Both the position numbers and the translations under genes were made by a program. Positions 42,089 through 44,284 of a DNA stretch of 64,000 nt are shown in pieces. The notes beneath the pieces are model-generated. The model was not told the DNA's origin. It saw only the letters and a program-made list of their open reading frames with translations, and ran no database searches. Position 1 is the stretch's first letter. Every line of letters begins with the position of its first letter. The DNA comes from Periplaneta americana (lineage: Eukaryota; Arthropoda; Insecta; Blattodea; Blattidae), in assembly GCF_040183065.1 (NCBI RefSeq), contig NC_091127.1:25645391-25709390 (forward strand), read 5' to 3'.

Positions 42089-44284
42089 CAGGGAAAGGAT
42101 TTATATGTAAATACAAATTTACTTATAAAGCTAATATAATTTATATTTTGCATTATCTTTATGTTTCACAATGTGTAGGGTTCAAAAATCATACTTTTAT
42201 TTTCCATATTTTTCCATATTTTAGAGTTTAGTACATATTTTCGTTAATTTCCATATATTTTCCATATTTCATATAAAACACTCCATATTATATTAGGTTT
42301 AACAATAAAACAAAACAAAATTCCATTAACTTTTAAAAATACATTTCAACAATAGAGATTTAAACACATGTTCAGTAATCCCTTTAACATCAGAGTTATT
42401 TGAAAATTAGCAGTCCTATCAACAATGGGAAAGTAAGTTACAAAACTGTATTAATTTAATTTAAAATTTTTAACAGACTTCAGTTGTGCAGCTCAACAGT
42501 TAAATGCCAGTCAGAGTACACATAGGTTCAGTTTTGTAAATCATACTATAAAGACGGTAAATATGCCAAAAGTACGTCATTCAGTCAATTTAAAATCAAA
42601 ACTAACAAGTTACATTTCAGAATTTAAAGAAGATGGTTTATCAACTGACAATAAAATATTATTTTGTAATTTGTGTCAGTGTGCAGTATCATCTACACAA
42701 AAGTTCCTGGTGCAACAACACATTACAACTAGTAAACATCAGGCCAACAAACAACTAAATTCCAAGCAGAGACAATTGTTTTTAACACAACCAACAACAT
42801 CGAATGTAAGATCTGAGTTTAACATCGACCTGTGCCGTTCTCTCATCTCTGCTGATATTCCTCTCTACAAACTAAAGAATAAGGTCTTCAGGGAATTCCT
42901 TGAAAAATATACTCAACATACAATCCCGGATGAGTCAACACTTAGGAAGACGTATGCTCCATCCATCTACGATGAGACAATACAGAAGATAAGAGATGAA
43001 ATTAAAGATAGTTCAATTTGGGTTTCCATTGATGAGACTCCCGACAAAGATGGTAGACTTGTTGGTAATGTAGTTATCGGTTTGTTAAGTGAACAATATT
43101 CTGAACGAATTCTTTTACATTGTGATGTTCTAGAAAAGTGCAATAACAAAACTATAGTTAAACTGTTCAACGAAGCTATGGGTATCCTGTGGCCAAAGGG
43201 TATTATGTACGATAATGTGTTATTCTTTATTAGCGATGCTGCCCCTTATATGGTCAAAGCTGGACAAGCATTATCTGTTGTATATCCTAAATTGACTCAT
43301 TTTACTTGTGTGGCGCATGCATTTCATCGTGTGGCAGAAGTGGTCAGAGACAATTTCCCTAAAGTAGATTTGTTGATTTCATCAGTGAAAAAAGTATTTC
43401 TCAAAGCTCCCAGTAGAGTTAACGTGTTGAAAGAAATGTACCCTGAAATTCCATTGCCACCAAAGCCAATTTTAACTAGATGGGGTACATGGCTAGAAGC
43501 AGTTGAATATTATGCCGAACATATAGACTCTATTAACAATGTTCTCCTTGCATTGGACTCTGAAGATGCAGTCTCAATTGATACTGCGAAAACAGTTACC
43601 TGTGACATAAGTGTGAAGAATGACTTAGCTCACATTCAGCATACATTTTCATGCATCATAAAAACGCTCAAAAGTCTCCAAAATAGGCACCTTTCACTAT
43701 CTGAAAGTTTTGAAATTATAAATAGTACTGTGGAACAACTGAATCGTGGTAGAGGTAAAGTTGCAGATGCAGTAAGAGCTAAGGTGGACACTGTACTTTC
43801 AAAAAACCCTGGATATGAAGAACTACAAAAGGTTGTTGCTGTGATGAGTGGTGAATCAACAGTGAAGATTAACTTGGACTTATCCCCAGCAGACATTGTG
43901 AAATTGAATTATGTACCAGTTACTTCTTGTGACGTCGAACGCTCTTTTAGTCAGTATAAATCTATCCTCAGAGACAATAGAAGAAGATTCACTTTTCAGC
44001 ACTTGAAAGAAATGTTTGTAACCTATTGTTATGGTAACAGACAATAAAAATTGTGTTTTGTTGAAACTACATTGGAAGATAAGGTACGTCCATTATATTT
44101 TTTGTTTAGTTTGATTAAAATGTACCAATATTTAACGTACATAGTCATTTTTTTATAATTTTAAGTCCATATTTAATTCCATATTTTGGTAAAAATCCAT
44201 ATTTAATTCCATATTTTGGTAAAAATAACTACATATATATTTACATATTTCATATATTTTTAGTCCATATAAATCCGTTCCCTG
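42089..44284 (+). mobile_element. Autonomous-looking hAT element, 2196 bp
   Basis: Left CAGGGAAAGGATTTATATG and inverted right CAGGGAACGGATTTATATG differ at one of 19 positions. GTAATTAT flanks at 42081-42088 and 44285-44292, a perfect 8-bp duplication. TCCATATTT-type motifs cluster inside both ends (42204-42290 and 44165-44275), as expected for transposase-binding subterminal repeats. It encloses a full transposase ORF. Confidence 0.92.
42563..44047 (+). CDS. hAT-family transposase, apparently intact
   Basis: A 494-residue open frame with no stop or frameshift, centred in a bounded hAT. An N-terminal BED-like finger has C35-x2-C38 and H53-x5-H59. The RNase H-like core follows: SIDETPD (D157) and [10 protein letters not shown] (D225) are the likely first two catalytic aspartates, TCVAH (C249-x2-H252) is the hAT CxxH motif, and TRWGTW at 305-310 the RW motif. 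The C-terminus [14 protein letters not shown] (457-470) is the dimerisation block. I cannot place the catalytic glutamate. It is shorter than Hermes-type proteins (about 610) and resembles DUF659/CGGBP1-like hATs. The start is the first ATG; AATAAA overlaps the stop. Confidence 0.9.

Follow-up and report, generated by a model that had tools for sequence, protein, structure and literature searches.

Hermes is a hAT transposon whose transposase has a D/D/E core with CxxH and RW motifs, as does the element described here. The cited sections of a Hermes study (PMC10368747) report an 8-base-pair (bp) target duplication of the form nTnnnnAn, an N-terminal BED zinc finger, subterminal repeats, and short imperfect terminal inverted repeats (TIRs), all of which have counterparts in the present element. 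The transposase given there is 612 amino acids (aa) long, compared with 494 aa here. The present element further differs from Hermes as described in these sections in having a central AT in 49 of 49 perfect target duplications, TCCATATWT motifs that point the same way at its two ends, and thousands of copies. By analogy, it would work like Hermes. The Buster group, for example Mar of Drosophila, likewise comprises hAT elements with an 8-bp duplication, but the consensus in the cited sections, nnnTAnnn (PMC3517528), contrasts with the AT centre found here. In the hAT-19 type with its CGGBP1-like N terminus, an N-terminal zinc finger is likewise followed by a presumed DNA-binding region, and insect members favour AT-rich motifs that match their subterminal regions (cited part of PMC8097297). 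We regard a link to this type as a lead only. An NCBIfam search of the present transposase gave one weak, irrelevant match, and no CGGBP1-like family was matched in either Pfam or NCBIfam.

The window, by which we mean the whole 64-kb stretch of DNA analysed, contains a hAT element of exactly 2,196 bp at 42089-44284. The 5' TIR (42089-42107, + strand) and the 3' TIR (44266-44284, - strand) are each 19 bp long and match at 18 of 19 positions; these exact ends were also counted genome-wide (see below). The element is flanked by identical 8-bp copies of GTAATTAT (no strand assigned) at 42081-42088 on the left and 44285-44292 on the right. The original prediction of 18/19 TIRs and a perfect duplication was thus confirmed at the exact coordinates. 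When 51 copies were read (the window copy included), 49 had a perfect 8-bp duplication of their own at the same boundary, showing that the boundaries and the duplication of the window element are not due to chance. The two exceptions are L012, which matches at 7 of 8 positions and lies in a simple repeat, and L050, in which the first three element bases are changed.

Inside the TIRs, four TCCATATWT motifs occupy the left end (42203-42269, + strand), oriented as those on the right, where two 30-bp tandem units at 44166-44226 (+ strand) contain another four. This right-hand region differs in length among copies (+30 bp in L059, -12 bp in L038). All 8 matches to TCCATATWT in the window fall within the element, four per end and in one orientation. 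The motif was picked post hoc from the element. The window total of 8 was also reached in 2 of 100 shuffles; the notable part of the result is the clustering in the element ends rather than the window count. In the 5' leader, the stretch 42432-42476 (GTAAGT ... TTTTTAACAG) resembles a small intron upstream of the open reading frame (ORF), an impression gained from the sequence only. An AATAAA at 44043-44048 (+ strand), which overlaps the stop codon, may be a polyadenylation signal, again judging by the letters alone.

The transposase ORF (42563-44047, + strand) comprises 494 uninterrupted codons, as originally predicted. A DUF659 domain, presumably the first part of an RNase-H-like catalytic core, was detected at aa 122-278 (42926-43396, + strand) with a Pfam E value of 3.5e-12 and 46.7 bits, above the cut-off of 34.7. 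We aligned the window transposase with six hAT proteins encoded elsewhere in this genome, which are 39-46% identical to it (seven rows). The N-terminal, BED-like C2-H2 zinc finger (C35, C38, H53, H59; 42665-42739, + strand) is presumed to bind DNA; C35, C38, and H53 are invariant in all seven rows, and H59 is replaced by R in L066. Residues D157 in SIDET (43031-43033), D225 in SDAAPYM (43235-43237), and E459 in DVERSFS (43937-43939), all encoded on the + strand, are those we take to be the catalytic triad from the known motifs of hAT transposases. Both aspartates are invariant in 7/7 rows, and the glutamate, whose loss had been named as a warning sign, is present in the window protein and in its relatives (6/6 rows covering the site; L070 ends earlier). 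Between the second aspartate and the glutamate lie the CxxH motif (C249-H252; 43307-43318, + strand), with both residues invariant in 7/7 rows, and the RW motif (R306 W307; 43478-43483, + strand), in which W307 is invariant in 7/7 rows and R306 is G in L068. The zinc finger, CxxH, and RW blocks of the original prediction are therefore present. The dimerisation block is a weaker case, because the C-terminal match to Dimer_Tnp_hAT (PF05699) reaches 14.8 bits, below the cut-off of 21.4; across the aligned members, 6 of 7 match this family at E ≤0.1 (best E 0.0083). A single-sequence fold model of the transposase had a mean pLDDT of 36, and single-sequence and profile searches of the PDB found no solved hAT structure, only chance-level matches. 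The element belongs to the hAT superfamily.

The original prediction also held that every other coding element in the window is broken. The window data are consistent with this and go no further, since the other frames were neither named nor shown to be broken. The longest other stop-to-stop frame has 198 aa, and a Pfam search with 10 frames besides the transposase (111-198 aa) gave no match at E ≤0.01. One of 186 aa (20907-21467, - strand), also without a Pfam match, looks by eye like the GIY-YIG end of a Penelope-like element. Long degenerate tandem arrays lie at 48876-50773 and 55433-56667 (21-bp and 12/32-bp units), and the GC skew is -0.46 at 48001-50000. No Rfam match was found in the window. 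Elsewhere in the genome, a TTAGG telomere-type repeat, in blocks split by short gaps, was seen near the start of contig 1 (G000:C1:7502-8180); matches to this repeat number 16,814 + 18,744 genome-wide (control 230 + 0), a sign of an arthropod host.

The perfect duplications reveal a target rule. Positions 4-5 are AT in 49/49 of them, compared with 11% of flanking dinucleotides; T occupies position 2 in 46 and A position 7 in 43, and all four bases are found together in 41. The rule is nTnATnAn, which fits the Ac-type consensus nTnnnnAn and does not fit the central TA of Buster. In search of empty sites, we joined left and right flanks for 37 insertions and compared the joined sequences with the window and with the other flanks. 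At least 6 of the 37 match a related stretch without the element, in which the target is present once, exactly for L027 and L045 and with one base different for L025, L029, L037, and L038. Two of these sites lie in the window (no strand assigned): that for L027 at 10972-10979, where the 8-bp GTTATTAC occurs once and is exact, and that for L037 at 17534-17541, where 7 of 8 target bases are the same. Spanning matches that were gapped or in repeats (L014, L035) and simple-repeat matches (for example L011, L034, L048) were not counted. The sites found are paralogous sites rather than empty alleles, and none for the window's own insertion was among the matches listed.

We searched the genome from which the window comes (3,231,669,367 bases, 3.23 Gb, in 91 contigs; window at G000:C11:25645391-25709390) with exact patterns. 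The TIR-end pattern had 6,967 + 6,955 matches (reversed-pattern control 0 + 0). A 40-mer from the catalytic core was found 6,860 times, a 174-mer beside it 6,259 times, and a 163-mer from the 5' leader 6,171 times, with a control count of 0 in each case. A joint fit of exact counts against pattern length gives about 7,063 copies and a difference of 0.076% per site from the majority sequence; a fit restricted to the two core counts yields 7,050 copies and 0.068%. The family amounts to about 15.5 Mb, or 0.48% of the genome, at 2.19 copies per Mb. At the start of contig 1 the value is 2.23 copies per Mb, and the density in this sampled region is therefore typical. When up to 2 mismatches were allowed, 14,678 TIR ends were found (control 47), a gain of only 756 over the 13,922 exact ones; there is therefore no large older layer bearing these ends, although derivatives with ends altered beyond 2 mismatches would escape the count. 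A whole-element DNA search of the same genome returned 16 matches and was not used for counting, because it skips very common words. The search for near-identical copies that had been proposed thus yielded about 7,060 of them, which deviate from the majority by about 0.08% per site and are not strongly diverged. The description "near-pristine", in contrast, does not set the window copy apart: compared with the majority of 39 aligned copies it differs in 5 places, including 43051 within the ORF, where codon reading gives a D/E exchange (residue 163).

Near-identity of this kind would also be expected of duplicated sequence. In an all-against-all comparison, no two of 39 copies shared both 1-kb flanks in register; the 8-bp duplications vary between copies, the core 40-mers are balanced between the strands (3,458 + 3,402), and paralogous empty sites exist. 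For the copies examined, these four observations rule out segmental duplication, a satellite, and an assembly artefact, and the chance that the family as a whole has such an origin is negligible.

Of the first 100 ends on contig 1 (0.7-22.9 Mb), all but 2 could be joined into pairs, 49 in total. Each pair spans 2,168-2,226 bp, with 36 at exactly 2,196 bp, and both unpaired ends have the core 40-mer nearby. No internally deleted copy was found among the 49 end pairs in these first 23 Mb (95% upper bound 5.9%). The agreeing counts of ends, leader, and core point the same way, to mostly full-length copies genome-wide. Damaged copies do exist, among them L050 with its changed tip and L019, which is interrupted by about 560 bp. 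In L019 (L019:2001-4770, G000:C2:82943311-82946080), the element breaks off after its position 1077 and resumes at 1061, so that a 17-base element stretch stands on both sides of the interruption, as a nested insertion with its target duplication would leave.

Divergence and coding state were measured in an unbiased sample of 16 paired copies, taken consecutively from the beginning of contig 1 and chosen for having two exact ends. The 14 that were read, L037 and L048 among them, have 1-5 substitutions each relative to the majority, with a mean of 2.29 in 2,196 bp (0.10%) and a variance of 1.30, and there is no excess of brand-new copies among them. The 494-aa frame is open in 11 of the 14; two copies have a frameshifting 1-bp insertion and one has a stop. 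The remaining two copies are known only from the table of a translated search, in which their frames are open, giving 13 of 16 (a fraction with a 95% range of 0.54-0.96), which for about 7,060 copies extrapolates to about 5,700 open ones. Intact ends thus go together with an open transposase frame in most sampled copies, as is expected of an autonomous, potentially active element. The translated search of the genome (87 scored of 56,055 candidates) favours intact proteins and lists 17 of the 49 paired copies; the 87 scored candidates were all full length without stops, a result not used as an open fraction. At insect mutation rates of 2.8-5e-9 per site per generation, a divergence of 0.075-0.104% corresponds to about 150,000-370,000 generations since the average insertion, an estimate that falls if some of the differences are assembly errors. 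The recent activity suggested by the original prediction is strongly supported by the number of copies and their closeness to the majority.

Is the ORF that these copies carry responsible for their spread? They could instead be passengers of a different hAT transposase, with the ORF incidental. The raw counts of the 18 coding changes in the 14 unbiased copies (14 missense, 3 synonymous, 1 stop) give no sign of constraint on single copies, although the numbers are small, and the genome has many other hAT frames. However, if the ORF were useless, shorter copies should have spread at least equally well, and none of the 49 paired copies is shortened. We consider the passenger explanation very improbable.

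Whether members of the family continue to transpose in present-day populations is a closer question. The many open copies favour this, as do 7 of the 39 aligned copies that are identical to the majority. The 39-copy alignment is biased, however: ten copies come from the whole-element search, whose hits share rare variants of the window copy, and 29 from the translated search with its preference for intact proteins (the interrupted L019, the diverged L020-L022, and the duplicate entries L001-L008 and L023 were left out). Moreover, identical copies do not require ongoing activity, because under a Poisson model one burst with a difference of 0.076% per site would by itself leave about 19% of the copies identical. 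All 14 unbiased copies that were read, the other two of the 16 being unread, carry substitutions. On balance, we put present-day transposition at slightly below an even chance.

The thin older layer bears on the origin of the family. The element may have arrived horizontally from another species shortly before the burst: hardly any ends were gained by allowing mismatches, and the three older relatives that come nearest among those seen are fragmentary, with 78-87% identity. These relatives (L020, L021, L022; the identity applies to the matching pieces) have altered ends, and the match to L020 is broken into separate pieces, as an internal deletion would leave it. A DUF659 search of the same genome gave 11,184 first-look candidates, 150 of which were scored; many of the scored loci have open frames of 400-520 aa and belong to other hAT families. 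Since L066, L067, and L069 look near-identical, other hAT families may be young too. The older relatives and the many other DUF659 loci mean that cousins were already in the genome, and a reawakened vertical lineage therefore fits as well. A scan of viral contigs for close relatives found none. Horizontal arrival is in our view a serious possibility, with the probabilities leaning somewhat against it.

Taken together, the element is very probably an autonomous hAT cut-and-paste DNA transposon that spread through this arthropod genome in a massive and very recent wave, reaching about 7,000 full-length copies. The data show its structure and boundaries, the target rule, the copy number and youth of the family, the paralogous empty sites, and the open frames in the sample. 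We infer each biochemical step, and also that the copies were moved by this transposase and not by a different one. By analogy with Hermes, the zinc finger would bind the AT-rich TCCATATWT repeats inside both ends and the D157/D225/E459 core would excise the element at its TIRs. Reinsertion would take place across an 8-bp nTnATnAn target, which thereby becomes duplicated. Copy number could rise if excised copies were restored from the sister chromatid or if copies landed ahead of the replication fork. Counting against the overall explanation are the dimerisation score under the Pfam cut-off, the low-confidence fold model, the failure of the single-sequence and profile searches to reach a solved hAT structure, and the broken frames in 3 of the 14 unbiased copies read. 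We propose tentatively, and with less than even confidence, that the roughly 7,000 copies are almost wholly full-length and autonomous through a route that hardly ever deletes internally, in a host that had yet to silence them. On this reading the invasion would have been caught ahead of any MITE (passenger) phase, and its strict nTnATnAn target would be tighter than the consensus published for Ac-type elements.

A DNA transposon family is usually encountered at a late stage, when a few dead autonomous copies are left beside many short passengers. The present family, with about 7,060 near-identical full-length copies and 13 of 16 sampled frames open, offers a clean and rare view of an invasion near its start. 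Three questions become testable in one species: how copies are gained by cut-and-paste, when and why deletion derivatives arise, and how fast the host silences an invader. Should activity be demonstrated, a frame that thousands of copies have in common could plausibly also yield a working vector. No published description of this burst was recognised in a literature search that had most subscription journals outside it. Comparable expansions have been described for other elements. Harbinger-Snek of sea kraits, from another superfamily, also underwent an explosive DNA transposon expansion; the cited sections give 269 fully intact copies in Laticauda colubrina, together with solo-ORF and many short non-autonomous variants, and 8-12% of the genome (PMC8437027). 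Mariner-2_DF of the fire ant is likewise a recent autonomous expansion with identical copies, reported there as 857 copies (≥60% of length) with a pairwise diversity of 0.0051 and 30 identical copies (cited part of PMC6307670); the present family numbers about 7,060 copies, whose divergence from the majority is about 0.0008, or about twice that between pairs. The planarian Buster1_NA1_SM is a recent hAT-derived burst as well, non-autonomous by name, with >250 copies at 1.45% from the consensus (cited part of PMC4298943). Measured against the figures in these sections, full-length copies of the present family outnumber the intact ones of Mariner-2_DF or Harbinger-Snek (PMC6307670, PMC8437027), and their divergence is low. 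The element belongs to an already known kind; what surprises is its scale and youth, together with the absence of deletion derivatives from the sample.
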